From an uncultured Clostridia bacterium (lineage in GTDB: Bacteria; Bacillota; Clostridia; Oscillospirales; Ruminococcaceae), in NCBI GenBank assembly GCA_937901805.1, contig CALDJI010000107.1:1-20418 (forward strand): a stretch of DNA of 20,418 nucleotides, in the 5' to 3' direction. A program made the position numbers and the translations under genes. The notes under the pieces were generated by a model. The model had not been told where the DNA came from, made no database searches, and worked only from the letters and a program-made list of their open reading frames with translations. Below are positions 3,589 through 19,720 of this stretch, piece after piece (the stretch's first letter is position 1; every line of letters begins with the position of its first letter).

Positions 3589-4155
3589 ATGAGACAGACA
3601 AAAACCAGAACCTTAGTGGAATGTGGATTAATGGTTGCTCTGGCCATGGTACTAAGTTTTATTCCTATCTTTGAAATGCCGATGGGAGGCTCAATCACTC
3701 TGTGCAGTATGGCTCCCATTGTATTAGTTTCTTTCTGGCATGGCTGGAAATGGGGGCTGCTTGCCGGAGGAGTCAATGGGGTAATTCAGCTTTTACTTGG
3801 TATGAAAAACGTCATGATCTGCAAAACTGTCTGGACAGTAATCGGCTGTATTTTTTTTGATTATCTGATTGCTTTTACCTCTATGGGGTTGAGCTGTGTC
3901 CTGGCCGGCCGTTTTAAACACCGTTTAGCAGGCGTGGGAATCGGAACCGCAGCCGCGGGACTGATTCGTTACCTGTGCAGTTTTTTGTCCGGTATCCTCA
4001 TCTGGGGGCAATACGCTCCAGAGGATATGCCGGTCTGGCTTTATTCTCTCCTCTATAATGGAAGCTACATGATTCCGGAAATTATATTGACCATTCTCGT
4101 GGTCGTCCTTATCATGAATAAATTTCCGCGTGGGAGTATTCAAAAGACAGCATAA
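3589..4155 (+). CDS. thiT: Energy-coupled thiamine transporter ThiT (ECF S-component)
   Basis: This is a 188-residue, six-helix membrane protein matching the ThiT/YuaJ family, which binds thiamine and works with the shared ECF module (EcfA, EcfA', EcfT) encoded elsewhere. The family pattern is seen in the first third: a long first helix, then FIPIFEMPMGGSITLCSM followed by PIVLVSFWHGWKWGLLAGG, plus conserved Trp-rich stretches and a late SLLYNGSYMIPE segment. The length fits the family (about 180-190 residues). The ATG at 3589 follows AAGGAG by 7 bases; an open frame extending upstream into the MATE gene is not needed. It is probably expressed from the MATE promoter, and no TPP riboswitch was recognised upstream, unlike many thiT genes. 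It ends directly at a strong bidirectional terminator. Confidence 0.88.
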   Translation: MRQTKTRTLVECGLMVALAMVLSFIPIFEMPMGGSITLCSMAPIVLVSFWHGWKWGLLAGGVNGVIQLLLGMKNVMICKTVWTVIGCIFFDYLIAFTSMGLSCVLAGRFKHRLAGVGIGTAAAGLIRYLCSFLSGILIWGQYAPEDMPVWLYSLLYNGSYMIPEIILTILVVVLIMNKFPRGSIQKTA

Positions 4156-4570: not shown

Positions 4571-5674
4571 TTACCGTTTGCTCTTAAACAGGGTCAAAAT
4601 GTCCCCAAAATCATCTTTTTCCCCTTCGGAGGAGAGATCCGCTGCTTTTCTGGAGTCATTTGCGTCCTTGTTCAGCAGATTAAAAGCCGGATGATTACCA
4701 TCCACCTTATCATCTGTATCAAAACCAGTTGCAATGACAGTAACCTGCATCTCATCCTGGAAACTATCATCAAAGGCGGCACCCCAGATAATCGTTGCAT
4801 CCGGATGCGCTGCTTTGGTAATCATGGAAGAGGCAATATCCACCTCATCCAAACCAATGTCCGGGGAAGAGGTAATATTGATAATCACGCCGTGTGCTCC
4901 GTTAATAGAAGTCTCGAGCAAGGGGCTGGAAATCGCCGCGGCAGCAGCAGCTTCCGCTTTATCTTTTCCCTGTGCGCGCCCAACGCCCATGTGGGCAAAA
5001 CCGGCGTCCTTCATGACTGTGGTTACATCGGCAAAGTCCAAGTTGACCAAACCAGGCACATTAATCAAATCAGAAATACTCTGCACGCCCTGCTTCAGGA
5101 CATTGTCCGCCGCATCAAACGCATTTGCCAGGGTAATTCTCTGTTCGCTGATCAGTTTCAATCTCTCGTTTGGAATCACGACAAGAGAATCAACATGTTC
5201 TTTCAGGGCGGCAACACCCTGCTCCGCCTGCTGCATTCTCTTCCTTCCTTCAAACATAAAAGGCTTTGTGACAATTCCCACAGTCAGGATACCCATTTCA
5301 CGGGCAATTTCAGCAATGACAGGAGCCGCGCCTGTTCCCGTGCCTCCGCCCATACCGGCCGTAATAAAGACCATCTGTGAGCCCTTGAGTGCCGCTGCAA
5401 TCTCCTCACGGCTTTCCTCTGCCGCTCTCTGGCCTTTTTCAGGGGAACCGCCTGCTCCTCTGCCCTTGGTCAGTTTTTCACCGATCTGGATTTTCTGAGT
5501 AGCCTGGGAACGATGCAAAACCTGCTGATCCGTATTTACAGCGATAAAATCGACGCTGCGCATTCCAGAAGCAATCATGCGATCCACTGCATTTCCGCCG
5601 CCGCCGCCGACGCCAATTACATTTATTGCAACCACTTTCTCAAAATCGTTGTCAAGATCAAAATTCATAGGCAT
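4571..5674 (-). CDS. ftsZ: Cell division GTPase FtsZ
   Basis: A 367-residue tubulin homologue that polymerises into the cytoplasmic Z ring. The G-rich N-terminal nucleotide loop [13 protein letters not shown] is at 21-33, the tubulin signature GGGTGTG at 109-115, and the T7 loop NLDFAD, whose acidic residues trigger GTP hydrolysis, at 211-216. A short variable linker ends in [10 protein letters not shown], a plausible C-terminal peptide for binding membrane tethers. The ATG at 5674 lies nine bases after AGGGGG; a further in-frame ATG is two codons later, and the upstream open extension lacks a site. It is last in the dcw cluster, 76 bases after the small basic protein gene, and that gap carries a strong promoter. 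ftsA, its usual neighbour, is absent. Confidence 0.97.
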
Positions 5675-5696
5675 TGTACTTGTCCCCCTAAAGAAA

Positions 5697-5725
5697 ATTA
5701 TATGCTCAAAAGTTCGTATTCTCAA
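5697..5725 (-). promoter_or_regulatory. Sigma-A-type promoter for ftsZ
   Basis: On the minus strand, -35 TTGAGA (5720-5725) and a consensus -10 TATAAT (5697-5702) are 17 bases apart. The predicted transcript would start only about 15-20 bases before the ftsZ start codon, just ahead of its ribosome binding site. This allows ftsZ expression independent of the long upstream operon. Confidence 0.75.
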
Positions 5726-5750
5726 AGACAGCACCAAAAGATACGTATAC

Positions 5751-6119
5751 TTACAATTTATCAGAATTCCTATCAAAATTCAATAACATTTTGCGAAGTC
5801 TCGATAAATTTTTAAACATCCGTGTGACAAAAACAAAAATAACCCCTAAATAAATGGACAAATTCAGGAGATTTCCCAGATATGTTAAAAAAGCGGCTAC
5901 AATCATATTGAAAATAAGACCGCCTAAAAACACACTGAGTTTAAAATCGCGCGCCACATAAGCTTTCAATGCACCCAAAATCGAATCAAATGCGGCAAGC
6001 AAAATAATTGCCACTAGAATCGTATAATCTTTCGGTATCTTCATAGGGGTATACATCCCAAGAAGAATCCCAGCGGCAATTCCAAGCAAAGGAAGCAATT
6101 TTCCAATTGAAAATTTCAT
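5751..6119 (-). CDS. sbp: Small basic protein (Sbp, DUF1290 family)
   Basis: A 122-residue hydrophobic protein with about four membrane segments, carrying [17 protein letters not shown] near the N-terminus, [12 protein letters not shown] in the middle and a basic C-terminus ([19 protein letters not shown]). This fits the DUF1290 small basic protein found next to ftsA/ftsZ in Firmicutes and Actinobacteria; its molecular role is unknown. The start codon overlaps the DUF881 stop by one base (TAATG), implying translational coupling. In B. subtilis, sbp sits between the ylxW/ylxX genes and ftsA, and here the same order holds with ftsA missing. Confidence 0.9.
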
Positions 6120-6856
6120 TATTCTTCCTCCTTTGGAGATGCGTATTGGAAATTCAATCCACTCGTATAGGCGCCAATCTCAATTTCCGTTTTTGGCTCC
6201 AATTTTGTAACAATCCCATTAACCGCCAGCTGATCAATTACCCCATTCCTCATTTGCAGGCCCGCAGCAAGTTTTTCCGGATCTCCAATAGCTTTAATCA
6301 CAAAAGGCGCGCTAATCCGGTTGTTATTGACGCTCACAACGTTTCCCGCACAACGCACCTCGCTGGTCGCAAGAATGCGCTCGTCGTTAATTGAGATCGC
6401 CTCGGCTCCTGCGTCCCTGAGTTCATTCAAAACCAGAAGCAAATCCGAATCATGGACAACATAGGTATTCGGATCATCATTTTCCGGTATGGCGGAATAC
6501 TGCATATCATCCAGTGTAACCACCACGCCAGGGCCGGTAACATCCGTCATTCCTGCCAGAAGCTCCGCCTGCCGGAGCCTGTCCTGATAAAAGGTGACAG
6601 CGTCTCCTCCTGCGCTTTGGGGCTCTGATTCAAATGTTTCTAACTGGCTGCGGTATTCTTTAACTTCCGCCTCCAAATTGGCGGAGCGCTCCTTTTCCGT
6701 ATTATAGAGTTTTTGAAGTTCTTCCAGCCTTGTATTATCTGCCGTAGAAACTGTCTGGCTATTAGCAGAAACCACACTGCGTATCTGCAATGTGACCATA
6801 AAGCTTAAAATGAGACAGACAAATGCAATCGCTAAATAACGCGCGTTTCTTTTCAA
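6119..6856 (-). CDS. DUF881 family protein (YlxW-like)
   Basis: A 245-residue protein with a short basic N-terminus, one membrane segment at about 7-27, a predicted coiled coil at about 40-80 (rich in Glu/Lys/Leu, with RLEELQKLYNTEKERS) and a C-terminal DUF881 domain from about residue 95 (LAGMTDVTGPGVVVTLDD, then VHDSDLLLVLNELRDAGAEA and IKAIGDP). The family accompanies divIB and sbp in Firmicutes dcw clusters (ylxW/ylxX in B. subtilis, two copies; only one here) and is presumably division-related, but function is not established. The start is TTG at 6856: a TGA lies immediately upstream in frame, and the nearby ATG at 6860 is out of frame. The AGGTG six bases before the TTG is a modest ribosome binding site. 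Confidence 0.88.
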   Translation of the reverse strand: MKRNARYLAIAFVCLILSFMVTLQIRSVVSANSQTVSTADNTRLEELQKLYNTEKERSANLEAEVKEYRSQLETFESEPQSAGGDAVTFYQDRLRQAELLAGMTDVTGPGVVVTLDDMQYSAIPENDDPNTYVVHDSDLLLVLNELRDAGAEAISINDERILATSEVRCAGNVVSVNNNRISAPFVIKAIGDPEKLAAGLQMRNGVIDQLAVNGIVTKLEPKTEIEIGAYTSGLNFQYASPKEEE

Positions 6857-6886
6857 TCATAACACCTGTCCTTTTCCGGTTTCTTT

Positions 6887-7849
6887 TCATCCGTTTGATG
6901 ATCCTGTCTGGGAAGTATCCGGTCGATTGCTTGGTGCCGAAGAAACCGGGTCTTCTGTTTGCTGAGAAGATGCGTTTGAAGAAGAGGCTGCAGAATCCAC
7001 CGGTTTTACAACGGCTTGTCCAGCAGTCGAAGCATCAATCACCACTGTTTCATTTTCTTTTAAGCCATTGTCGAGAACATATTTTACAAATTGTAATTTA
7101 TAGGGAATCTGAGATACAGAACCAATTATAATCGAAACCTTTTCATTATATTTTATCCTGATATTAAATTTATCGGAAATATCTATGTTTTGCGTCCCTT
7201 CAATCCCCCACTGTGCCAACGCATCCACAATCTGGGACAGCGTATCCAAATCCGGAAAAGCGGCGGAATCCAGATACTGTCCGGCAGAAACATTCTGGAG
7301 CGGAAGTCCTGCGATTTCCAATACATTCTCCGGTTTTGCGGCACCGGTTTCCAACACCTTTCCTGAAGCACTGACCAGGGTATAGCGATTATCCTCCCCA
7401 CGATAAGCGCGAGCCGGTTGTGCAGGCTGTACAGAAATCTCGACCACCGAGGGCAATTTCCGCCTCACTTTTACATTTTCCAGGTAGGGGAACGCCGATT
7501 CGATTGTATTTTCTATTGCACCAGATTTAAAAGAAAACATATTGTTTCCATTTACAATTCCGGATGCGCTGATGAGCTGATCAGAGGAATACCTTCCGGT
7601 ATCCCCTGTTACATGAACCGCCGCAATTTTAAAAAAGACGGCAGAGGTAATCACTGCAGCAGATGCAAGCACAAACAGCAAAAGCAATACAAGAACCAGG
7701 CGTTGTCTGCGTTTTCTCTGTTTACGATGCCGCTTGGCATTTTCCGCCTGAATATATTCCCTTTTACTCAATTCCCGCCTGCGTCCAGGAGGATGCTGTG
7801 ATTTTTTTTGCTGCGGAGGCCTTGCCTGCCGTCCTCGTTTCTTCTTCAT
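6887..7849 (-). CDS. ftsQ: Cell division protein FtsQ/DivIB
   Basis: A 320-residue bitopic membrane protein. A long, very basic cytoplasmic tail (residues 1-49, many Lys/Arg/Gln) leads into a membrane helix at about 50-73, a POTRA domain at about 75-145 (VHVTGDTGRYSSDQLISASG; VRRKLPSVVEISV), the DivIB beta domain to about 275, and a low-complexity Ser/Thr/Pro/Asn tail. DivIB forms a complex with FtsL and DivIC outside the membrane and regulates septal peptidoglycan synthesis by FtsW and its PBP. The ATG at 7849 follows GAGGT by seven bases. It lies directly downstream of the broken murA: the original murA frame would have stopped at 7868, 18 bases before this start, whereas the present murA frame stops at 7923. 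Confidence 0.92.
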   Translation of the reverse strand: MKKKRGRQARPPQQKKSQHPPGRRRELSKREYIQAENAKRHRKQRKRRQRLVLVLLLLFVLASAAVITSAVFFKIAAVHVTGDTGRYSSDQLISASGIVNGNNMFSFKSGAIENTIESAFPYLENVKVRRKLPSVVEISVQPAQPARAYRGEDNRYTLVSASGKVLETGAAKPENVLEIAGLPLQNVSAGQYLDSAAFPDLDTLSQIVDALAQWGIEGTQNIDISDKFNIRIKYNEKVSIIIGSVSQIPYKLQFVKYVLDNGLKENETVVIDASTAGQAVVKPVDSAASSSNASSQQTEDPVSSAPSNRPDTSQTGSSNG

Positions 7850-7867
7850 AGATCATACCTCATGAAA

Positions 7868-8987
7868 CTATTTTTCACGTCTTATTTTTGCGCCGAGACA
7901 GCGCAGGCTTTCCTCAATTTGTTCATATCCACGATCTGCCTTCCACACTGATTTTTGCGCCCATCCGGCGCAGCTGTTCCACATGCTTAAACCGGTTTTC
8001 AAAAATATTTTCTACAAATACAGTCGAACCCTCCGCACAACTGAGCGCCGCCATCAACGGGGCCTGCATATCGGTGGGAAAACCGGGATAGGGCATTGTC
8101 CGTACTGCGCGTACAGCGCATAATCTGTCATCATTTCTCAAATAGATACTGTTTTCTCCCGTCAGGACTGTGCAGCCGCTCTCCTTCAAAATGGGAATCA
8201 ACGCATGTACATGGCCCGGGTTGACATGCTTTAAAAAAACATCTCCTCTGGTAGCTGCTGCCGCGACCAGAAAAGTAGCCGTCTCTATCCGATCCGGAAT
8301 CACGGTATATTCACAGCCGTGAAGTTTTGCAACTCCTTCAATATAGATGGTGCTCTCTCCGGCGCGGCAGATCTTTGCACCGCATTTATTTAAATAGCCC
8401 GCCAAATCCACAATTTCCGGCTCCTGTGCAGCGTTGGAAATCGTAGTCGTTCCCTTGGCAAGGCATGCAGCGATCATCAGGTTTTCGGTTGCGCCAACGC
8501 TCGGGAATGACAGAGACAGGAATGTCCCCTTCAGGGATTGGTTTGCATTGCAGACCAAATCCCCGTGCTTTTCCTCAATGGAGACGCCAAGCTGGCGCAG
8601 TCCGTCCAAGTGCAAATCGATGGGCCGGGGGCCAAGCTCACAACCGCCAGGATAAGAGATTGTGGTCTTACGGCAGCGGGAAACAATCGCACCTAGAAAA
8701 ATAATGGAGGAACGCATCCGGCGCATCATTTCGTGCGGAACGTCGCAGCAATTCACCTGCGTGCTGTCCACTACAATCGTATCTTCTTCCTGTTTCACCT
8801 TACAGCCCAGGTATTCCAGAATTTCTATGGCAACGTCCACATCGGAAAGCTTTGGGCAATTATGTATGACGCTGATATCCCCGCACACAAGACTTGCCGC
8901 GAGGATAGGAAGCGCGCTGTTTTTCGCCCCATGAACAGAGAGTTCCCCTTTTAGCCTGTTTTTTCCTTCGACAATCAATCTCTCCAT
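7868..8987 (-). pseudogene. murA: UDP-N-acetylglucosamine 1-carboxyvinyltransferase MurA with 3' deletion and frameshift
   Basis: MurA transfers enolpyruvate from PEP to UDP-GlcNAc, the first committed peptidoglycan step. The open frame (7923-8987, ATG at 8987 after AAGGG) gives 354 residues; the family has about 415-420. Present are K22-N23 in the VHGAKNS stretch, the PEP/fosfomycin Cys (C116 in GGCELGPRPIDLHL), R121, and D306 in FPTDMQA. At residue 351 (ISVEGR) homology stops and the frame ends SWI-stop. Starting at 7936 in another frame is the family C-terminus, DRGYEQIEESLRCLGAK onward, 22 codons ending at TAG 7868-7870. About 45 codons between these points, including the conserved DLRA segment, are missing, and the join is off by one base. 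Both C-terminal active-site Arg residues (R371 and R397 of E. coli) are therefore lost from the product. It is probably inactive, with a second MurA presumably encoded elsewhere. Confidence 0.88.
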
Positions 8988-9102
8988 ATCCACACACCCT
9001 TCTCTGTAAGCAGAAAACAGGGAAAGGCTGACATTTTCCCTGCACTTTATCCTATGCAGGGGCCGCACAGCGTGTGAGACATGTTTTGATTCGCCGTACA
9101 TT

Positions 9103-9130
9103 TTTATACAAATAGGAATTATTATCAAAA
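9103..9130 (-). promoter_or_regulatory. Possible internal promoter upstream of murA
   Basis: The 162-base gap between murG and murA contains TATAAA (9103-9108) with a poor -35 (TTTTGA, 9125-9130) 16 bases upstream; TTGACT at 9129-9134 is also present but at wrong spacing. The gap is unusually long for this cluster, which is the main reason to consider a promoter here. Confidence 0.3.
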
Positions 9131-9149
9131 GTCAATGCATTGTTTCTAT

Positions 9150-10295
9150 TTATTTCTGATCTTTTTGGCGGTTCTTCTCCATCAAATGCATCATTTCACG
9201 GTAAATGCGTTCATTGGAATCAATCACCGCAATGGAGCGGGCATTTTTTCCAAGGGTTTTAAGCTGCCCGGGATCACTCACCAGTTTTTTAACGGCCTCC
9301 ACCAAAATGTGACCTGTCAAATCTTTTTCCTCGATTACCACCGCGGCACTGGCGTTTTGCAGTACCATCGCATTGTGGTACTGATGGTTTTCTGAGACAT
9401 TGGGAGATGGGATTAGAATAGAGGCCTTCCCAGCTGCTTCAATTTCGCTGAGCGTAATTGCGCCTGCGCGCCCAATGACCAGATCACATGCCGCCAATAC
9501 GCGTGGCATATCATGGATGTATTCTGTAATATGGATTTTTTTGTTTTCCTTCAAATCGACGTTGCGCTCCTCCAGCAATTCCGGAAGATAATCCACACCG
9601 TAGCTGCCCGTTGCATGGTAATGCCAAAGCCTTGCCTCCTTATAATGCCAGGCAATCACGTCTGCAATGGCTTCGTTAATACGTTTTGCACCGAGACTTC
9701 CGCCAAAGGAGAGAATGACAGGTTCCTCATCGGTAATGCCGAGCTCCCTGCGCGCTTTCCCGCGATCATAGAAAATGATTTCTTCACGAACCGGATTGCC
9801 GACTACAGCATAATCCATATCCGGATCCAGATAATCCTTTGCTTTTTCTACAACGAGCCATCCTTTATCCACCCGCTTTGACAGAATTTTATTGGTGACG
9901 CCCGGAAACGCATTCTGTTCATGTATTACCGTGGGAACCCCCAGCTGGCACGCGGCACGCACAACCGGTCCGCTGACATATCCGCCGGTTCCGACCACAA
10001 GATCCGGGTGAAATTCCCGGATAATCTGTTTTGCCCGGTGACCCGCAGTGATCAGATGACCTACTGCCTTGAGGTTGTGTTTGAAATTTTTCCAATTGAG
10101 CTTTCTCTCAAAACCACGCACAGAAATCATTGCCATATCAAAGCCGGCTTTGGGAACCAGTTCCGCTTCCATACCAAACGGCGTGCCGGCATAGAGAATT
10201 TTTGCCTCCGGATGCCTTGCACGGACATAGCCGGCAACCGCCAAAGCGGGATTGATATGTCCCCCGGTACCGCCGCCGACAAACAGTATTCTCAT
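9150..10295 (-). CDS. murG: UDP-GlcNAc:lipid I N-acetylglucosaminyltransferase MurG
   Basis: A 381-residue GT-B glycosyltransferase that converts lipid I to lipid II on the inner membrane face. The glycine-rich loop GGGTGGHINPALA is at 7-19, followed by GTGGYVSGPV and HEQNAFPG in the N-terminal (acceptor) domain. In the C-terminal domain are GGSLGAKRINEA and the UDP-GlcNAc-binding segment GRAGAITLSEIEAAGK with SENHQYHNA. The length is slightly above the usual 355-370. The ATG at 10295 lies about nine bases after AGGGGG. It follows ftsW by 33 bases, a conserved neighbour pair in Firmicutes. Confidence 0.97.
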   Translation of the reverse strand: MRILFVGGGTGGHINPALAVAGYVRARHPEAKILYAGTPFGMEAELVPKAGFDMAMISVRGFERKLNWKNFKHNLKAVGHLITAGHRAKQIIREFHPDLVVGTGGYVSGPVVRAACQLGVPTVIHEQNAFPGVTNKILSKRVDKGWLVVEKAKDYLDPDMDYAVVGNPVREEIIFYDRGKARRELGITDEEPVILSFGGSLGAKRINEAIADVIAWHYKEARLWHYHATGSYGVDYLPELLEERNVDLKENKKIHITEYIHDMPRVLAACDLVIGRAGAITLSEIEAAGKASILIPSPNVSENHQYHNAMVLQNASAAVVIEEKDLTGHILVEAVKKLVSDPGQLKTLGKNARSIAVIDSNERIYREMMHLMEKNRQKDQK

Positions 10296-10328
10296 GATTG
10301 TTTCCCCCCTTGTTTTTCTGCAGCGGCA

Positions 10329-11477
10329 TCACGTTTTTTCCATCATGGAATACCGTGATACACTGAGCACAACGCCCATCTCCATTAACAGCATCATCAA
10401 GGAGGAACCGCCCGCGCTAAAAAATGGAAGGCTAATTCCCGTATTGGGGATGGTATTTGTGACAACGGCAATATTCAGCAAAGCTTGTACGCCCACCTGA
10501 ACGGTGATACCGACCGCCAGCATTGCCCCAAATTTATCCGGAGAGCGCATCGCAATGATAAAGCCCCTCCAAACAAGCAGGACAAACAGAATAATGATAA
10601 AAGTAGCCCCGATAAACCCGAGTTCTTCACAGGCAATGGAAAAAACGAAGTCATTTTGCGGCTCCGGAATATAGAGGAATTTCTGTTTGGAATTTCCAAG
10701 CCCTGTCCCGACCAGGCCGCCAGAACCGATAGCCAGGAGGGACTGATAGGTCTGAAAGGTCTTTCCCGTAATATCGGCAAAGGGATCCAGCCAATATTGA
10801 AGCCGCAGTTTCGCATGATCCAGTAAATTCGTGAACAGAAACAGACAGACTACCCCTGCCGCGCCAATTCCGCCCGGAATAAACAAATACCGCAGACGGG
10901 TACCCCCAATAATCATCATGATAAACGCAATCGCCACAATGATAATCGTACCGGAAAGGTGTTTTTCCAAAATAACCATACCAGCAATAATTGCCAGAAT
11001 AATCATAAAGGGGAGCACACCATAGCGGAAGGTCTTCATTTTATTATAATAGATTGCAATAAAGTGTGCAAACATCAGGACGGTGGTAAATTTTGCAAGC
11101 TCAGACGGCTGAAAAGTACCAAGTCCCGGAATAACAATCCAACGCCGTGCTCCATTGAGTTCCGGCATGAACAAAACCACTGTCAAAAGAATTAATGTCA
11201 CCAAAAAAATGGGAATCATCAATTTATGGAGGATATGATAATCGATATGCGCAATAACCAGCATGGCAACCACACCTGCCACTGCGAAGATCAACTGTTT
11301 GGAGATAAATTCAAAACTGTCTCCATAAACATAATAGGCATTGACATAACTTGCAGAAAACATGGTGACCAAGCCTACCACAAGCAGTAAAAGGACAAGG
11401 ACCAGAAAGGAAATATCAATTCCGCTTTTTTTCTTTTTTTCTTTTTTGGCCCGCGGTCTTTTCAGAAATTTTACCAA
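10329..11477 (-). CDS. ftsW: SEDS peptidoglycan glycosyltransferase FtsW (SpoVE/FtsW type)
   Basis: A 382-residue SEDS protein with a strongly basic N-terminus (KRPRAKKEKKKK) and about ten membrane segments. SEDS hallmarks are LNGARRWIVIPGLGTFQPSE after helix 4, the extracellular PEPQNDFVFSIACEELG segment, and NTGISLPFFSAGGSS near the C-terminus. It polymerises glycan strands from lipid II with its cognate class B PBP, encoded upstream in this cluster. The best start is TTG at 11477, eight bases after AGGG; no ATG occurs before the first membrane helix. In B. subtilis this position is held by spoVE, so an FtsW or a SpoVE role is possible. murD, which usually precedes it, is absent. Confidence 0.93.
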   Translation of the reverse strand: MVKFLKRPRAKKEKKKKSGIDISFLVLVLLLLVVGLVTMFSASYVNAYYVYGDSFEFISKQLIFAVAGVVAMLVIAHIDYHILHKLMIPIFLVTLILLTVVLFMPELNGARRWIVIPGLGTFQPSELAKFTTVLMFAHFIAIYYNKMKTFRYGVLPFMIILAIIAGMVILEKHLSGTIIIVAIAFIMMIIGGTRLRYLFIPGGIGAAGVVCLFLFTNLLDHAKLRLQYWLDPFADITGKTFQTYQSLLAIGSGGLVGTGLGNSKQKFLYIPEPQNDFVFSIACEELGFIGATFIIILFVLLVWRGFIIAMRSPDKFGAMLAVGITVQVGVQALLNIAVVTNTIPNTGISLPFFSAGGSSLMMLLMEMGVVLSVSRYSMMEKT

Positions 11478-11532
11478 AACCAGTACCCTGCCTTTCTATC
11501 TTCGATCTGCCGGCATACCAGCCGTGCAAAAA

Positions 11533-12537
11533 CTACAGCATGACCACCGCAGCAATTGAAAGCAGCACCCCAATCAGGGCTACTGCGGAAAACAAGATGA
11601 CAATTTTATTCTCGCCATATCCAGACATCTCAAAATGATGGTGAATCGGGCTCATTTTAAACACCCGTTTTCCGGTCAGTTTAAAACTCGTTACCTGGAT
11701 CACTACGGAAAGTGCCTCAATAATATAAAGGATTCCCGCAAAAACCAAAATTAACGGGAAGTTTACACCAAATCCAAGCGCAACTACCATTCCCCCCAAA
11801 AACATGGAGCCGGTATCCCCCATAAAAATTTTAGCAGGGTGAATATTCCAGAACAAGAAGCCAAGGCATCCTCCTGCCAAAGCAGCAGATAAAATACTCA
11901 TCGGCGCTACGCTGAGCATACCGGAAATGACAAGAAAACCCAATGCAACAACAAAAGTAACCGAAGAATCCAAACCGTCGATCCCATCTGTCAGGTTGAC
12001 GGCATTGACCAAAAACACAATCCCTATCATTGCCAGCGGGTAGTAGAAAAAGCCCAGATTTATCTGGCCAAGAAATGGTAAAGCCACTATCGTGCTGCTA
12101 TCGCCCGCACAATAAAGCAAAATCATATACACGGCGGCAACAACGAACTGTAGAATCAGCTTTTGTTTTTCATTCAGTCCCAGATTTCTTTTTTTTACGG
12201 CTTTAATGTAATCATCCAGAAACCCAATAAAGGAAAAACCAAGCGCCATAATAATGCCCGCAAAGAGTTTGAGATTGTATGCCTGGTTCTGGACAATCTC
12301 CGGGACAGCCAGAACCGCCACAATATAGGCTACCAAAACCGCCAGAAGAATCCCGATAATGAACATAAAGCCCCCCATAATCGGTGTCCCCTGTTTGGAT
12401 TTATGCCAGCGCGGGCCAATATCAAGAATTGTCTGCCCAAAATGAATCTTTTTTAAAAACGGAATCAACTTAAACCCGGTCAAGGCCGTTACAACTGCTG
12501 CGACTGCCGCCGCAAGAAAAACTGGCAGGTTACTCAT
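11533..12537 (-). CDS. mraY: Phospho-N-acetylmuramoyl-pentapeptide-transferase MraY
   Basis: A 334-residue integral membrane enzyme (about ten helices) that transfers phospho-MurNAc-pentapeptide to undecaprenyl phosphate, forming lipid I. Family motifs are present: FLDDYIKAVKKRNLGL with the paired Asp, FLVNAVNLTDGIDGL, FMGDTGSMFLGG and the loop PIHHHFE. The ATG at 12537 overlaps the murF stop by four bases (ATGA), which indicates translational coupling. A GTG four codons earlier falls on the ribosome binding sequence GGGGAG and is rejected. The product is highly hydrophobic and slightly longer than the usual 320 residues. Confidence 0.97.
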   Translation of the reverse strand: MSNLPVFLAAAVAAVVTALTGFKLIPFLKKIHFGQTILDIGPRWHKSKQGTPIMGGFMFIIGILLAVLVAYIVAVLAVPEIVQNQAYNLKLFAGIIMALGFSFIGFLDDYIKAVKKRNLGLNEKQKLILQFVVAAVYMILLYCAGDSSTIVALPFLGQINLGFFYYPLAMIGIVFLVNAVNLTDGIDGLDSSVTFVVALGFLVISGMLSVAPMSILSAALAGGCLGFLFWNIHPAKIFMGDTGSMFLGGMVVALGFGVNFPLILVFAGILYIIEALSVVIQVTSFKLTGKRVFKMSPIHHHFEMSGYGENKIVILFSAVALIGVLLSIAAVVML

Positions 12538-13910
12538 CTGTTTTCGCACTCCCCATATGTCTTACTGATGATGTCCTCAAGCTTCATAGAATGACTTGCT
12601 TTAAAGAGAACAGCGTCCCCCTCATGCACATTCTTCTTCAGGTATGCGCAGACCGCCTCTTGTCGAGCGAAATGCGCTGATTTTATGGATTCTCCTGCTC
12701 CCTGTGCATAGAGTATGCTGCGCGGTCCATAGCAAACCAGTTCGTCCAGATGCAGCTGAGCGCAGAGCTTCCCGACCTTGAGATGCCCCGGTTCCTCCAT
12801 CTGCCCCAGTTCCAGCATATCCCCCAATACGGCGACATGTTTTCCTTTACAGGGCAGAGAGGCGAACGTGGTGAGAGAAGCATACATGGAATCCGGACTG
12901 GCGTTATAACAGTCCGCCATAACCGTAACACCGCCGGAGCAGAAAATCCTCTGGCGGTTCCCGGACGGCACATAGGAAAGGAGCCCTTCCAGACATTCTT
13001 CCCGGTTTAAATCCATCATGCGGCCTATTGCAAAGGCACACACCGCATTTTGCACATTATGGCGCCCAATACAAGGAATTTTCGCCGGAATTTCTTCTTT
13101 TCCATGACAGATGGTAAATGTGGTTTCATAAATATTTTCCCTGATATCTTTTGCATAATAATCCGCATTATGATTTTCCGCAGCATAAAAACAGATATTT
13201 TTATAAATATCCGCTCCAACTGTCCGCAGCAAATCATTGTCCATGTTAAGCAGCAGAGGACCGCCTTCCTTTAATCCGGAAAGGATTTCCAGTTTTGCAG
13301 CCAGAATATTTTCCCGGGTGCCGAGATTTTGCAGATGGGATACGCCGATATTGGTAATAACCGCAATATCCGGGCGTACTGCTTTGGAAAGCACCTCGAT
13401 TTCCCCCCGCGCACTCATACCCATTTCGATGACAGCCGCCTGATGTTCCCTGCTCATTGCGAACAAGGTCTTGGGCAAACCAATTTCATTATTGAAATTC
13501 CCCTGTGTTTTTAATGTCCGGTATTTTCGGGAGAGAACCGCCGCAACCATATCTTTTGTCGTTGTCTTTCCAACACTCCCTGTAACGCCGACAATTTTTG
13601 GGGAAAACCTTGCACGGTATCCAGCCCCAATATCAATATGAGCCTGCATGGTGTCTTTGACAACGATTAAAGGCAGATGCGCATATTCTTCTTCCACCTT
13701 GTTGACAATTGCGCAGACAGCACCCTGCGCAATTGCGGACACAACAAAGCGATGTCCATCAAAGATTTCTCCCTGAACTGCGACAAAGACACTTCCTGGT
13801 TTTATATCGCGGGAATCTGTGCTGATATAGGATACCGGCCGGTCACCGGATAAATTGCGGGATATTCCCCCGCAAAATGACAGGATTTCACTAAGCAAAA
13901 TGGTTTCCAC
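12534..13910 (-). CDS. murF: UDP-N-acetylmuramoyl-tripeptide--D-alanyl-D-alanine ligase MurF
   Basis: A 458-residue three-domain Mur ligase that adds D-Ala-D-Ala to UDP-MurNAc-tripeptide. The N-terminal substrate domain has STDSRDIKPGSVFVAVQG at about 30-47, the ATP loop GVTGSVGKTTTK is at 108-119, the central domain has NFNNEIGLPKTLF and EMGMSARGEI, and the C-terminal domain has DCYNASPDSM and AVLGDMLELG. The start is GTG at 13910 with AAGGGG nine to ten bases upstream; the next gene upstream, murE, ends 34 bases away. Its place between murE and mraY is absent from the B. subtilis cluster but common in other bacteria. Confidence 0.96.
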   Translation of the reverse strand: METILLSEILSFCGGISRNLSGDRPVSYISTDSRDIKPGSVFVAVQGEIFDGHRFVVSAIAQGAVCAIVNKVEEEYAHLPLIVVKDTMQAHIDIGAGYRARFSPKIVGVTGSVGKTTTKDMVAAVLSRKYRTLKTQGNFNNEIGLPKTLFAMSREHQAAVIEMGMSARGEIEVLSKAVRPDIAVITNIGVSHLQNLGTRENILAAKLEILSGLKEGGPLLLNMDNDLLRTVGADIYKNICFYAAENHNADYYAKDIRENIYETTFTICHGKEEIPAKIPCIGRHNVQNAVCAFAIGRMMDLNREECLEGLLSYVPSGNRQRIFCSGGVTVMADCYNASPDSMYASLTTFASLPCKGKHVAVLGDMLELGQMEEPGHLKVGKLCAQLHLDELVCYGPRSILYAQGAGESIKSAHFARQEAVCAYLKKNVHEGDAVLFKASHSMKLEDIISKTYGECENR

Positions 13911-13944
13911 TGGCCTTTTCCCCTTTTCGGATACAATTCCTCTG

Positions 13945-15399
13945 TTATTTTTTCAGTTTCCGTTCCATACGGATTCTTTCGAGCATTTCCTGAACGATCT
14001 TTCTCTCATCGAAAAAGATCGTTGCATCATGGAGCACCTGATAATCCTCATGCCCTTTGCCTGCAAGTATAATCAAATCATCTTTCTGTGCATGTGTCAA
14101 GGTATAATAAATCGCCTCATAGCGATCCGGAATAACGATGTGGGGAGTTTTATACTGTTCAAAACCCGGCAAAGCATCCTGAATAATCTGCATAGGATCC
14201 TCGCTTCGAGGATTATCGCTGGTCAAAACCACAAAATCCGCATGCTTTGCCACACTCTCTACCATTTTGGGACGTTTGCCCCTGTCCCGGTTGCCCGCGC
14301 AACCGAACAGAACGACCAGTCGCCCGGTCTTAATTTTTTCCATTGCCTCGAGCATCTGCTCCAGGCCATCCGGCGTATGCGCATAATCACACATCAGCGT
14401 ATAATCCTCGCCCGTCTCGATAACCTCGCTACGCCCTCTTACCCCGGGGAAAGTATCCAATACGCGTGCAGCTGCTTTGAGGTCAAACCCCAACGAAACC
14501 AGACATGCTGCCGCAGCCAGTGCATTCGACACAGAAAATTCCCCAGGCATACAAAAATGAACCCTGGCGATGGTCAGATTGGCAACAATGGTAAAATCCA
14601 CCCCGTCCGGGCGATACGTAATTGTTCGGGCCGTAAAATCTGCATTATTATCATGCGTAGAAAAACTGAATTTGCGGCAGCAAAGCATATCATCCAGCAG
14701 TTTGCCATACTCGTCGTCATAGTTGACAACCGCATTATCCGCCATAGAAAAGAGTTTTGCCTTTGCCTGAAAATAGTTTTCCATGGTCCCGTGGTAATCA
14801 AGATGATCCTGGGTCAGGTTAGTAAAAACCGCGCAGGCAAACTGAATCCCATCCAGACGGTGCTGATCCAGCGCGTGGGAAGAAGCCTCCATCACAACAT
14901 ACTCACAGCCGGCCTTGGCCATACGTGCAAACAGGGCATGGAGTTCCCCCGGATCCGGGGTGGTATGTTTTGCCGGAATCGCCATATCCCCGATTTCATT
15001 TTGAATCGTCCCAATCAGTCCAACCTTATGCCCCAAATCCTCCAGCATATGTTTGAGGATATTGGTAATTGTCGTCTTTCCGTTGGTGCCGGTCACACCA
15101 ATAATTTTCATCTTTTCCGCAGGATATCCAAAAAAGGCAGCGCTCATCAGCGCATATGCGTTACGAGTATTCGGCACTAGGATTTGGCATTCCAAACCGA
15201 CGTCATGTTCTGCAACAACCGCACGTGCGCCGGCTTCCACCGCCTCTTTCGCATGATCGTGCCCATCAAATTTCTGCCCCCGGATACAGATAAACACACT
15301 GTCTTTGACAACCTGCCTGGAATCAGCGGTTACGCAGGAGACCTCGAAATCGAGATCTCCCGTGCCGCATACCCGCTGCATAATTTCACTGAGTTTCAT
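13945..15399 (-). CDS. murE: UDP-MurNAc-L-alanyl-D-glutamate--2,6-diaminopimelate ligase MurE
   Basis: A 484-residue Mur ligase adding the third stem-peptide residue. It shows TADSRQVVKDSVFICIRG in the N-terminal domain, the P-loop GVTGTNGKTT, HTTPDP, EASSHALDQHR, the KAKLF segment with the Lys that is carbamylated in this family, and the specificity motif DNPRSEDP. DNPR is the signature of meso-diaminopimelate ligases (Lys-adding enzymes differ here), so the cell wall is predicted to be meso-DAP type. The ATG at 15399 is nine bases after AGGAGG. It lies 43 bases downstream of the PBP gene in a continuous transcription unit. Confidence 0.97.
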   Translation of the reverse strand: MKLSEIMQRVCGTGDLDFEVSCVTADSRQVVKDSVFICIRGQKFDGHDHAKEAVEAGARAVVAEHDVGLECQILVPNTRNAYALMSAAFFGYPAEKMKIIGVTGTNGKTTITNILKHMLEDLGHKVGLIGTIQNEIGDMAIPAKHTTPDPGELHALFARMAKAGCEYVVMEASSHALDQHRLDGIQFACAVFTNLTQDHLDYHGTMENYFQAKAKLFSMADNAVVNYDDEYGKLLDDMLCCRKFSFSTHDNNADFTARTITYRPDGVDFTIVANLTIARVHFCMPGEFSVSNALAAAACLVSLGFDLKAAARVLDTFPGVRGRSEVIETGEDYTLMCDYAHTPDGLEQMLEAMEKIKTGRLVVLFGCAGNRDRGKRPKMVESVAKHADFVVLTSDNPRSEDPMQIIQDALPGFEQYKTPHIVIPDRYEAIYYTLTHAQKDDLIILAGKGHEDYQVLHDATIFFDERKIVQEMLERIRMERKLKK

Positions 15400-15442
15400 A
15401 AAAGGGATCCTCCTCCCGTTTTTTTTGAGAGGAAGCACGCGA

Positions 15443-17647
15443 TCAATCCGCGTTCCCCTCTTTATTTCTGAATTCCACCGTAATTACGGTTCCCCGCGGA
15501 ACCTGTTCCCCGGCGGCAACCGTTTGTGAAATGGACGTTGTCGTCCCCTCTACTCCAGCGCCGGTCACCCTGAGCTGCAGGCCGGCATTGGTTAATCGGG
15601 CGTTGACCTGATCCCCGGATAGGTTCAAAACATCCGGTACGGTGACCATGTCGTTTTCCCCTTGCTCCGTATACAGGATAATCGATCCCCCATTGGGTAC
15701 GGATTCTCCATATTCCGGAACCTGCCGTAATACCGTTGTACCGCTGCCGACAATCTCTGCATTCAGCCCTTTTTCGCGCAGAGTGGCCTGCGCCTCCAAA
15801 AGCTGGGAATTTGTCACATTCGGCACCGTAACGTCCAGTTGGGCAAGTTCTTCGCTAGTGTACTCAGGTTCAATACCAAGATAGGGAAGAGCGTCCGCCA
15901 AAACTGCAGCCGCAGCCGGAGCTGCCAGAACGCTTCCGTAAATACTATAGCTCTTCGCATTATCAATCAAAATCAATACGGCGATTTCAGGATCGTCTGC
16001 GGGAGCCATTGCAAAGAAAGAAGCAATATAAGAAGGTTCCGAATCCTCACTGTCCAGTTTTTCCGCAGTCCCGCTCTTCCCTCCGACACGGTATCCCGGA
16101 ATGTAGGCATTATCGCCGCCCCCGTCAGTTACAACGCTTTCCAGTACCTGACAAACTTTCTGGGAAGTCTCCTCCGATAGCACCTGTCGCTTTACCTCCG
16201 TCCCAAAGGATTCCACAACATTTCCGTCGGCATCAATAATCTGTTTTACCAAATGCGGCTGAACCAGATACCCGCCGTTTACCGCAGCACAAGCCGCCGT
16301 CATCATCTGGATCGGCGTAATTTTATTTGACTGTCCAAAGGAACAGCTTGCCAGCTCAACCGGGCCCATTTGATCCGCGTTCATGACAATCCCGAGTTCC
16401 TCTCCCGGGAGATCAATTCCCGTCTTGCCAGTAAAGCCATAAGCACTCAGATATTTTGTGAATTTATCTACGCCGAGCCTGCGCCCCAGTTCAATAAAAA
16501 CCGGGTTGCAGGAATTTCCTACTGCCTGGACAAAATTTTCTGCTCCATGTCCCCCTGTTTTCCAACAGTGCATGGTAACGCCTGACACTTCTTCATACCC
16601 TCTACAATAAAACTGATCGTCAAAGGAGGCAACTCCCTCTTCCAACGCACTGGAAAATGTTACAATTTTAAAAACCGAACCCGGTTCATAGATATCCGAA
16701 ACAATTTTATTGCGCCATTGGTAATTCTGTGCTTCGCTGAGTTTTTCCGTCCGAGCATCGCCTGTCAAGGTTTCAATTTCTTTACGGGTTTCCTCGTCGG
16801 CAATCACAAACGGCTGGTTCAAATCGAAATCCGGTTCTGTCGCCATAGCCAGAATCTCCCCGGTATTGACATTCATAACAATCCCGGCTGCCCGATCCTG
16901 GACATTATGCTCTTTAACCGCAATTTCCAGTTGTTTTTCCAGGTAATTTTGAATCGCCTGGTCAAGCGTGAGAACCAGACTATTTCCATCCTTTGCACTC
17001 ACCATGGTTTCGTATTCCCCTGGCATGTCAATCCCCCAGGCGTTCCTGGCAGAAAGGACAGTCCCCGGGGTTCCCTGCAAGTAGCTGTCATAATATGCTT
17101 CTAAACCGGTAAGGCCGGTATTATCTGTTCCGGTAAAACCGATAACCGTAGAGGCGAAGTCATTAAATGGGTAATACCGCTTGGAATCCTCGATCAAATT
17201 AATCCCATCGATATCATTTTCCGACGCAAAGGAAATCACCTGCTCTGCAACGGTTCTGTCCACCTTGCGTTTGATCACCTCATAATAAGAAGCCGTCTTC
17301 TGGCATGCTTCCAGGATGGCGGATTCCTCCACGCCCAAAATGGGGGATAACCCGGAGGAAATCAGGGTCCAGTCTTCCTCATCGATTTGGGCCGGTGCCA
17401 AAACAATGGTCCATGCTGTCGCGCTCTGTGCCAGCGCAGTCATATTTCGATCATAGATTGTCCCGCGGGAAGCGGCAATGGTGGTTTGGCTCATTTGCTG
17501 GTTTTCCGCTTTGCTTTTGTAAAATTCGCTGTCGATAATCTGGAGCTGAAACAGCCGCAAAATCAAGGTGACAAACCCTACCAAAATGATCAGGGCTGCA
17601 ACCACAAGCATTCTTTTCCGCATGGCTCCGCTGGGGCTTTTTGCCAT
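15443..17647 (-). CDS. Class B penicillin-binding protein (SpoVD/FtsI/PBP2x type) with two PASTA domains
   Basis: A 734-residue D,D-transpeptidase that crosslinks septal or spore peptidoglycan. One membrane anchor (about 13-31) is followed by the PBP dimerisation domain (starting about 36; SRGTIYDRN at 60-68) and the transpeptidase domain. The active-site motifs are S324-V-F-K327, S379-C-N381 and K524-S-G-T527. Two PASTA repeats follow at about 604-662 and 667-728. In B. subtilis, pbpB and spoVD sit here in tandem; only one gene is present, so it is presumably the essential divisional PBP, though a SpoVD role cannot be excluded. The ATG at 17647 follows GGAGG by eight bases; an upstream in-frame extension of 37 codons has no ribosome binding site. 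Confidence 0.95.
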   Translation of the reverse strand: MAKSPSGAMRKRMLVVAALIILVGFVTLILRLFQLQIIDSEFYKSKAENQQMSQTTIAASRGTIYDRNMTALAQSATAWTIVLAPAQIDEEDWTLISSGLSPILGVEESAILEACQKTASYYEVIKRKVDRTVAEQVISFASENDIDGINLIEDSKRYYPFNDFASTVIGFTGTDNTGLTGLEAYYDSYLQGTPGTVLSARNAWGIDMPGEYETMVSAKDGNSLVLTLDQAIQNYLEKQLEIAVKEHNVQDRAAGIVMNVNTGEILAMATEPDFDLNQPFVIADEETRKEIETLTGDARTEKLSEAQNYQWRNKIVSDIYEPGSVFKIVTFSSALEEGVASFDDQFYCRGYEEVSGVTMHCWKTGGHGAENFVQAVGNSCNPVFIELGRRLGVDKFTKYLSAYGFTGKTGIDLPGEELGIVMNADQMGPVELASCSFGQSNKITPIQMMTAACAAVNGGYLVQPHLVKQIIDADGNVVESFGTEVKRQVLSEETSQKVCQVLESVVTDGGGDNAYIPGYRVGGKSGTAEKLDSEDSEPSYIASFFAMAPADDPEIAVLILIDNAKSYSIYGSVLAAPAAAAVLADALPYLGIEPEYTSEELAQLDVTVPNVTNSQLLEAQATLREKGLNAEIVGSGTTVLRQVPEYGESVPNGGSIILYTEQGENDMVTVPDVLNLSGDQVNARLTNAGLQLRVTGAGVEGTTTSISQTVAAGEQVPRGTVITVEFRNKEGNAD

Positions 17648-17670
17648 GTAAGGCACCTCCATAATTTCAT

Positions 17671-17689
17671 ATGCTGCAAAATACAGCAT
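17671..17689. other. Hairpin in the ftsL-PBP intergenic region
   Basis: An 8-bp inverted repeat (including one G-T pair when read as minus-strand RNA) with a 3-base loop, core ATGCTG / CAGCAT, ends 24 bases before the PBP start codon. It is not followed by a U-tract on the minus strand, so it is not a standard terminator; an mRNA processing or stability element is possible. Confidence 0.35.
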
Positions 17690-17696
17690 GGTTTTT

Positions 17697-17724
17697 ATTT
17701 TCCATTTTAAACAAAAAGAGTCAA
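17697..17724 (-). promoter_or_regulatory. Possible internal promoter upstream of the PBP gene
   Basis: The 126-base gap between ftsL and the PBP gene contains a good -35 TTGACT (17719-17724) and a poor -10 GAAAAT (17697-17702) 16 bases apart on the minus strand. The size of the gap compared with most neighbouring gaps in the cluster supports a regulatory role, but the match is weak. Confidence 0.35.
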
Positions 17725-17773
17725 GAAAGAGATTTCTTAACCCTTTGTGGTACATCATATACCTATTGTTTTT

Positions 17774-18247
17774 CTATCTGAGATATTCCATCAGATTTTG
17801 AAACCATCCGCTGATTCTTTGGAAAATATTCGGTTTTACCATGTCCTTGGAAAGGACGACTTTCTCCTCTTCTGATAAGGACACATACTGTACCTGCTGT
17901 TTTTCCATTTTCTGCATGCCAAGATTTTTCGTCGCATAATCCTCAATATTTTTTAAAGAAGTTTTTCCTTCCAATTCCATATCGAGTCTGGTTCCTTCGC
18001 TTTCCAAAATAGTCATTTGATTATTCGCCTGTCGGATTTCTTCATTTGCCTCAATAATCAATACGCGGTTATAAATCAGTACGGAAGCCAGGACGCCCAT
18101 CACAATCAGCATCATAATGGCCTTCGCAGGGCTCATGCCCAGCACCTTCCATTTACGGGGCGACTTTTTGGGTTCAAGCACTTCCATTGCCGGACGTTTT
18201 TGTTTTTCTTCAAATCTGGAAAGATCATATGCTGCGTTGCCGTTCAT
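17774..18247 (-). CDS. ftsL: Cell division protein FtsL (DivIC/FtsL-like)
   Basis: A 157-residue bitopic protein with a 40-residue cytoplasmic tail, one membrane helix at about 41-59 and a periplasm-side coiled coil at about 62-95 (IIEANEEIRQANNQMTILES). It is followed by IEDYATKNLGMQKMEKQQVQ, which resembles the short conserved stretch after the coiled coil of FtsL/DivIC proteins. Its position between rsmH and the PBP gene is the standard ftsL locus. It would pair with DivIC and DivIB to activate the septal synthase. The ATG at 18247 follows GGAGG by eight bases; a longer frame to 18277 is rejected because this ribosome binding site lies inside it. Sequence similarity in this family is low, so the call leans on topology and position. 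Confidence 0.88.
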   Translation of the reverse strand: MNGNAAYDLSRFEEKQKRPAMEVLEPKKSPRKWKVLGMSPAKAIMMLIVMGVLASVLIYNRVLIIEANEEIRQANNQMTILESEGTRLDMELEGKTSLKNIEDYATKNLGMQKMEKQQVQYVSLSEEEKVVLSKDMVKPNIFQRISGWFQNLMEYLR

Positions 18248-18304
18248 GGATATTTCCTCCGTTTCCTGCCGCGGCAAGCGGTTATCTTATCATTTCATTT
18301 ATGA

Positions 18305-19228
18305 CTACAATTTTTCTGCAACCCGTAATTTTGCACTGCGGCTGCGGGGATTTTCTAAAAGTTCTTCTTCCCCCGCCTCTATCGGTTTTCGGGTAATCAG
18401 CTTTATCTGCGGCTTATGTCCGCAAACACAAATTGGAAACTCCGGCGGGCAGGTACAGCCCTGTGCCATCCGTTTTAATTTTTGCTTTACCATGCGATCC
18501 TCTAAAGAATGAAACGTGATCACTGCAAAACGGCCGCCGGGCTTTAAACAGTCAAATACATCATCCAACGCCCGTGAGAGGTTGTCCAGTTCTGAATTAA
18601 CCGCAATCCGGATTGCCTGAAAGCTGCGCCGAGAGGGGTTTTTCTCCCTGCGGTATTTTGCCGGAACCGCATCGTGGATAATCTGTGCAAGCTGTCCTGT
18701 TGTTTCAATGGGATGTTGTTCCCGTTCCTTCACAACCGCCGCGGCAATACGGCGGGAAAACCTTTCTTCCCCATATTCAAAAAGGATTCGGGCAAGTTCC
18801 GCCTCTTCACAGGTATTGACCAAATCCCTGGCAGAGTAACCTTCCTGGCTCATCCGCATATCAAGCGGGGCATCCGCATGATAGGAAAACCCGCGTTCCG
18901 CCACATCTAATTGATGGGATGATACGCCCAAATCCAGGAGTACCCCGTCAATTTGTTCTATATTCAAGGTGGCGAGCACCTGTTTCAAATCTGCAAAATT
19001 GGCATGAACTACCTGGGCGCAGGGGTAGGCGGAAAGGCGCTCCGAAGCGATTTTCACCGCATCCGGATCACGATCCAGCGCAAGCAGGCGGCCGGTCGTC
19101 AGACGTTTGGCAATCTCACGGGAATGTCCGGCACCGCCGGCTGTTCCATCCACATAAATACCATCCGGTTTAATGGAGAGGCCTTCTATACATTCCTGAA
19201 GCAGCACCGATATATGGTGGAATTCCAT
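18305..19228 (-). CDS. rsmH: 16S rRNA (cytosine1402-N4)-methyltransferase RsmH
   Basis: A 307-residue SAM-dependent methyltransferase (formerly MraW) that modifies C1402 in the ribosomal P site. It starts MEFHHISVLLQECIEGL, with the SAM-binding motif VDGTAGGAGHS at about 26-36, LDLGVSSHQLD in the middle, GFSYHADAPLDMRM, the conserved RRSFQAIRIAVN segment, and the late VITFHSLEDRMVK motif. The length is normal for the family. The ATG at 19228 follows AAGGGG by about eight bases, and the gene begins 22 bases after the mraZ stop codon. It is the second gene of the cluster, as usual. Confidence 0.97.
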   Translation of the reverse strand: MEFHHISVLLQECIEGLSIKPDGIYVDGTAGGAGHSREIAKRLTTGRLLALDRDPDAVKIASERLSAYPCAQVVHANFADLKQVLATLNIEQIDGVLLDLGVSSHQLDVAERGFSYHADAPLDMRMSQEGYSARDLVNTCEEAELARILFEYGEERFSRRIAAAVVKEREQHPIETTGQLAQIIHDAVPAKYRREKNPSRRSFQAIRIAVNSELDNLSRALDDVFDCLKPGGRFAVITFHSLEDRMVKQKLKRMAQGCTCPPEFPICVCGHKPQIKLITRKPIEAGEEELLENPRSRSAKLRVAEKL

Positions 19229-19250
19229 TGCTCATTCCCCTTTCCGATGA

Positions 19251-19670
19251 TTAGAAGCCAAGATCCTCCATCGCCTGTTCAATGGTTTCTCCCGTCAACT
19301 CTGCACACATGGCGTCCCAGGTATCTTTGTCCCAGATTTCTGCACGCACTGATGCGCCGATAATCATCACATTTTTATTTAAATGTGCAAATTCCCGCAG
19401 GCTTTGCGGAAGAATAATTCGCCCCTGCTTATCGCATTCCACCTTGGCGGCGGAGGCAAACAAAAAACGCTGAATCGAACGCGCTTTTGAAAGGGGAAGC
19501 TCCCGGATTTTGTTTTCAAGTTTTTCCCATTCTTCCATAGGATAAACAAACAGGCAGCCGTCCAGACCCTTAGTCACAATAAAACTTATCCCCAGGTCTT
19601 CCCGAAGGCGGGAGGGGAAACTTACCCTGCCCTTATCGTCAATCGTATGCTGATATTCTCCGATGAGCAC
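19251..19670 (-). CDS. mraZ: Transcriptional regulator and division-cluster protein MraZ
   Basis: A 139-residue protein with two tandem SpoVT/AbrB-like DNA-binding halves. Each carries the family's DxxGR motif (DDKGRVSFPSRLRE near the N-terminus and DKQGRIILPQSLRE in the second half). MraZ forms a ring-shaped oligomer and binds direct repeats in front of its own operon, repressing dcw transcription. The preferred start is GTG at 19670, giving VLIGEYQHTID (usual family N-terminus) with AAGGTGG eight bases upstream; a TTG at 19691 would add seven residues and has no ribosome binding site. It is the first gene of the cluster and faces a promoter with matching operator repeats. Confidence 0.95.
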   Translation of the reverse strand: MLIGEYQHTIDDKGRVSFPSRLREDLGISFIVTKGLDGCLFVYPMEEWEKLENKIRELPLSKARSIQRFLFASAAKVECDKQGRIILPQSLREFAHLNKNVMIIGASVRAEIWDKDTWDAMCAELTGETIEQAMEDLGF

Positions 19671-19720
19671 CGCCTTCACCACCTTGTTCAACTCAAATCA
19701 AAAATGCCGGTTTTATGGGT

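Follow-up and report, generated by a model that had tools for sequence, protein, structure and literature searches.

Probable recent inactivation of a redundant dcw-cluster murA by a 137-bp deletion with frameshift in a Pseudoruminococcus-like gut Clostridium

According to one survey, the MurA proteins of Firmicutes fall into three clades with one to four copies per genome, and MurAB has been lost in several lineages (PMC9600426). The same work reports that MurAB is unable to replace MurAA in B. subtilis but able to do so in S. pneumoniae; hence, redundancy among MurA copies is not automatic (PMC9600426). For E. faecalis, a second study describes murAA as not individually essential, MurAB as essential in the absence of murAA, and the MurA enzymes as targets of a binding regulator (PMC12077105). 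In a third study, five of nine selected Firmicutes genomes have murA within the dcw cluster, and in most other phyla the gene lies outside it (PMC8871954).

The murA gene described here is part of such a cluster. The window, meaning the whole stretch of DNA that was analysed, is an entire contig record of 20,418 bp. The closest relative with DNA for comparison is Candidatus Pseudoruminococcus merdavium (G001), the dcw murA locus of which is designated L001. Table 1 lists the relevant features; dcw genes without a Pfam or NCBIfam test carry presumptive names that we assigned from sequence. Elsewhere in the window, the gene for a thiamine transporter (Thia_YuaJ, 3589-4155) exceeds its G001 counterpart (L123) by 69 bp, an in-frame stretch that the latter lacks.

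Table 1. Coordinates of the truncated murA and of its surroundings in the window
Feature	Position	Strand	Remarks
Truncated dcw murA, 354 aa	7923..8987	minus	collinear with MurA through residue 351; matches positions 1-352 of 416 in TIGR01072
Out-of-frame MurA C-terminus remnant, 22 codons + TAG	7868..7936	minus	reads DRGYEQIEESLRCLGAKIRREK-stop
Deletion junction	7934..7937	minus	137 bp absent relative to G001; join ambiguous by 1-3 nt
ftsQ-like (POTRA_1), next downstream of murA	6887..7849	minus	intact
murG, next upstream of murA	9150..10295	minus	intact
dcw cluster mraZ-mraW-ftsL-spoVD-murE-murF-mraY-ftsW-murG-murA-ftsQ-DUF881-DUF1290-ftsZ	4571..19691	minus	collinear with G001

Aligned with L001, the murA locus of the window shows a single 137-bp gap and is otherwise collinear at the DNA level (a MAFFT alignment puts the same gap at position 7940). 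The murA frame ends in ISVEGRSWI followed by a stop codon, and the remnant one frame over matches the C-terminus of full-length MurA homologues. At the edges of the deletion, the closest full-length homologue listed (P0003) reads EGRVAIVEG on the left and HHVDRGYE on the right, which implies that V352-V396, corresponding to 45 codons, and two additional nucleotides are gone from the window. The upstream arginine codon at the junction was deduced from P0003, which is a protein record and not DNA. Since the sister species contains an intact gene between the same neighbours, we can eliminate the possibility that the broken frame is a product of chance. These comparisons confirm the preliminary description of the locus, which had proposed that the frame follows MurA to residue 351 and then stops, that the old C-terminus is readable one frame over, and that an internal deletion of about 45 codons with a frameshift separates the two parts.

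The predicted product retains K22, C116, R121 and D306, which we take to be catalytic residues of MurA. The TDLR and [DQ]RGY motifs are missing, and with them two arginines that presumably correspond to the active-site residues R371 and R397 of E. coli MurA. Both the intact residues and the lost arginines had been predicted correctly. Among 37 aligned MurA homologues, D370, L371, R372 and G373 show no variation, and R398, G399 and Y400 almost none. In a profile search the truncated protein still scores 430.1 bits against TIGR01072 (murA; cut-off 392.7), as would be expected if it remained an active enzyme. However, this activity is extremely improbable, because the invariant D370-L371-R372-G373 segment and the nearly invariant R398 are missing, and the residues of aligned solved MurA chains past approximately 354-360 have no counterpart in the protein. 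The profile match also falls short of full-length coverage of TIGR01072 / PF00275. In AlphaFold models with P0003 as the control, the pLDDT of residues 331-350 drops from 88-94 in P0003 to 55-59 in the truncated protein, and that of residues 1-10 from 94 to 68. Since the catalytic domain has lost its final portion, and with it the DLR motif and DRGY arginine, the product should be inactive and poorly folded, even though it keeps the catalytic cysteine.

We then turned to the age of the break. A protein search for murA homologues produced 7999 matches, and among the 120 listed the closest full-length homologue is P0003 (418 aa, 96% identity, three contigs), which is intact. The next listed homologues, P0004, P0005 and P0006 (92, 90 and 88% identity), are each full length and served as outgroups for assigning amino-acid changes to either the window or P0003. 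Since the split of these two, five changes occurred on the window side (one of them the junction residue) and six on the P0003 side, with one ambiguous. The dN/dS ratio of murA codons 1-350 relative to G001 is 0.029, compared with 0.011-0.141 for 15 other genes, although all of these ratios are rough because synonymous sites are nearly saturated. We considered relaxed selection ahead of the deletion and found no sign of it in the change counts (5 vs 6) or in these rough ratios. By the same two measures the truncated murA displays no sequence decay past the deletion, the break being too recent to tell. MurG was searched as a yardstick of divergence; the best records are 90% and 88% identical, and none of the records listed is near-identical. 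Because P0003 is intact and the broken copy contains no excess of substitutions, the event is either recent, as first proposed, or an artefact of one contig. To judge from the sequence, the break would have come late.

An artefact would imply that the organism does not carry the deletion, which would instead stem from a chimeric read or from a minor-variant path in one metagenome contig. Consistent with this explanation, the deletion is seen on one contig only: among the 120 listed matches P0001 alone has the 354-residue length, and its cluster is listed with two members yet a single contig, the 20,418-bp window record. (For P0022, with 396 aa, the source itself indicates a partial sequence.) The records of this gene also contain another odd indel. 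P0007, a 383-aa dcw MurA from the same genus on one 2.5-kb contig, lacks a different stretch of 35 residues in frame, which may be real or an artefact. On the other hand, the flanks of the deletion are collinear with G001, and the join shares only 1-3 nt, which is probably too little for repeat collapse by a k-mer assembler. Furthermore, the contig contains no second gene-breaking indel. In a comparison of 20 ORFs with G001, any gaps comprise whole codons, apart from those in murA, murE, ftsI and the thiT region. The indels in murE (codon 3) and ftsI (codons 4 and 30, in the ORFs as mechanically listed) precede the likely true starts, one further small gap sits upstream of the thiT start, and the remaining non-triplet indels are intergenic. 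Since these gaps lie outside the likely coding sequence, the murA gap alone breaks a gene, and we can reject low-quality sequence with scattered frameshifts as an explanation. Given this evidence, we consider an artefact unlikely, but a possibility to be reckoned with.

A survey of related loci addresses a different alternative. Searching with the truncated protein identified 391 loci, the best 80 of which were examined. The dcw-type MurA frame is intact in 78 of them; L034 runs off the end of its contig, and L059 has a nonsense codon. The 354-residue form occurs in none of these 80 (best of 391), which rules against a conserved short form in this lineage, the finding that the preliminary description had named as speaking against its own reading. 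The description had also raised the option of a repurposed truncated protein. In such a case, the 354-residue form would be retained without catalytic activity and would bind the second MurA or a regulator. The start codon and the first 351 codons are indeed intact without excess substitutions, the PDB lists an integrative model in which MURA2 is paired with MURA1 (9a7b), and a binding regulator targets the MurA enzymes of E. faecalis according to PMC12077105. Nevertheless, the form is missing from all 80 relative loci (best of 391), the break is too young for conservation to show, and the second domain is predicted by AlphaFold to be destabilised. With no positive evidence in its favour, repurposing is very improbable. 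We attach just as little credence to the idea that the truncated dcw MurA persists as the regulatory partner of the second MurA, in which case the deletion would be not decay but an adaptive conversion of an enzyme into a regulator.

The stop codon in L059, from a distant Clostridia MAG (G042), is an in-frame TAA at 9066-9068, about 60 codons before the end of the dcw murA and in place of the Glu found in the window's genus. This codon is possibly a sequencing error in the MAG. G042 retains an intact non-dcw MurA.

That a second MurA covers the function is suggested by the relatives. G001 encodes a second full-length MurA on a separate contig, with 552.6 bits versus 527.5 for the dcw copy. Among 41 genomes (G001 and 40 relatives), the non-dcw type is present in 39, being absent from G024 and G036. 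The dcw type is present in 32, with fragments and contig-cut copies counted, and was not found in G002, G015, G017, G018, G029, G030, G036, G037 and G041. As the completeness of the 41 genomes is unstated, single absences are weak and may be assembly gaps. Both copies also occur in each of the nine genomes that contain nine of the loci, among them G001 and G014, with an internal stop in the dcw copy of one of the nine, G042. In a maximum-likelihood analysis of 86 MurA rows, for which the bootstrap had not yet converged, a 100/100 branch separates 38 dcw-type from 48 non-dcw rows; support for the same split in a quick tree is 99. Across 35 genomes that carry both types (leaving out rows shorter than 330 residues and an odd third copy of G035), conservation is weaker for the dcw copy in 593 of 595 genome pairs, with a mean identity of 0.508 versus 0.640 for the non-dcw copy. 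Within the window's genus, the four clusters of non-dcw MurA are mutually 95-99% identical and the four dcw clusters 87-91%. The non-dcw MurA also passes NCBIfam NF009470 (608 vs 552 bits), whereas dcw-type P0003 fails at 476.7. By analogy with G001, the genus and the wider relatives, the genome of the window would also contain a non-dcw MurA. The earlier expectation of a second murA is therefore probably correct. The puzzle of a lost essential step attached to it is not: with two MurA lineages in the relatives, and several of these seemingly devoid of the dcw copy, this premise is unsupported.

Loss of the dcw copy can be followed in the same genomes. In G015, G018, G030, G037 and G041, ftsQ comes straight after murG, and the search revealed no dcw-type murA. 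The murG-ftsQ join continues to ftsZ on the same contig in G018, G037 and G041; the contig of G030 begins inside murG and runs via ftsQ to ftsZ, and that of G015 terminates inside ftsQ. A hidden, divergent dcw murA in G015, G030, G037 and G041 was considered and rejected, as the leftover weak matches to the murA profile are AroA according to NCBIfam. G018 gave a single murA match, of the non-dcw type, and no leftover match to the profile. The absence of dcw murA is uninformative in G002, G029 and G036, where dcw murG was not found, and in G017, where murG stands on a 6.3-kb contig with no other dcw gene. With non-dcw MurA as a stand-in for the species tree, the five losses require at least three changes (a count that omits the rows of G002, G017, G029 and two others). 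Shuffled labels need 4.8 changes on average, which means that the losses cluster somewhat. Among the relatives, dcw murA thus appears to have been lost entirely on at least three occasions.

Other rearrangements were observed along the way. Six loci (L141, L161, L162, L163, L215 and L203) have rearranged dcw clusters, for example with ftsW adjoining murA and no murG between them. In G013, murG-ftsQ and spoVD-ftsW-murA form two separate clusters. G040 has a MurA-like gene split into two pieces, each ending at the Pro-Gly-Gly-Cys motif of the active site (L213, G040:C54, 2133-4419; L212, G040:C38, 4095-4538). The C-terminal piece adjoins the gene for a large serine recombinase with Resolvase, Recombinase and zinc-ribbon domains, and the N-terminal piece lies on a different contig beside genes that we presume from their sequence to be dnaJ-, dnaK- and ffh-like. 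This split may reflect either site-specific recombination at the active-site codons or misassembly.

The best explanation for the window, to which we assign a probability of roughly 0.7, is early pseudogenisation of a redundant dcw murA by a recent 137-bp deletion with frameshift, with the non-dcw MurA covering its function. The deletion itself is present in the sequence; we infer that it is also present in the organism. In this Pseudoruminococcus-like gut Clostridium, the deletion would have inactivated the dcw copy, and UDP-GlcNAc-enolpyruvate would be made by the second, non-dcw MurA. Retention and stronger conservation of the latter are observed in the relatives and presumably extend to the window's genome. 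The window may then represent an early stage of the process that appears to have run to completion at least three times in relatives. The broken gene is probably a recent pseudogene of a redundant paralogue or else an artefact of a single contig, and it does not point to a missing essential step. Taken alone, it amounts to an ordinary pseudogene of a duplicated gene. The more useful result is the general pattern of two MurA lineages, with the dcw copy evolving faster and apparently lost more than once. This pattern flags a clade in which the dcw copy seems gone at least three times and the non-dcw MurA would carry the essential first step of peptidoglycan synthesis, and the dispensability of the dcw copy becomes directly testable. 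Provided that the deletion is real, the window captures the first step in the loss of a murA from the dcw cluster.

The nearest known counterpart is the dcw murA of Candidatus Pseudoruminococcus merdavium (L001), which resembles the window in gene order and encodes a protein of 92% identity. In contrast to the 354-aa form of the window, that gene is intact and encodes 418 aa. In the MurAA/MurAB/MurAC system of Firmicutes, as described in PMC9600426 and PMC12077105, genomes likewise encode at least two full-length UDP-GlcNAc enolpyruvyl transferases, one of which has been lost in particular lineages. Unlike in that system, the broken copy here is defined by its dcw location and is not equated with AA, AB or AC. 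Finally, to the occurrence of murA inside dcw clusters, as documented in PMC8871954, the window adds an intermediate: a broken copy that is still in place.
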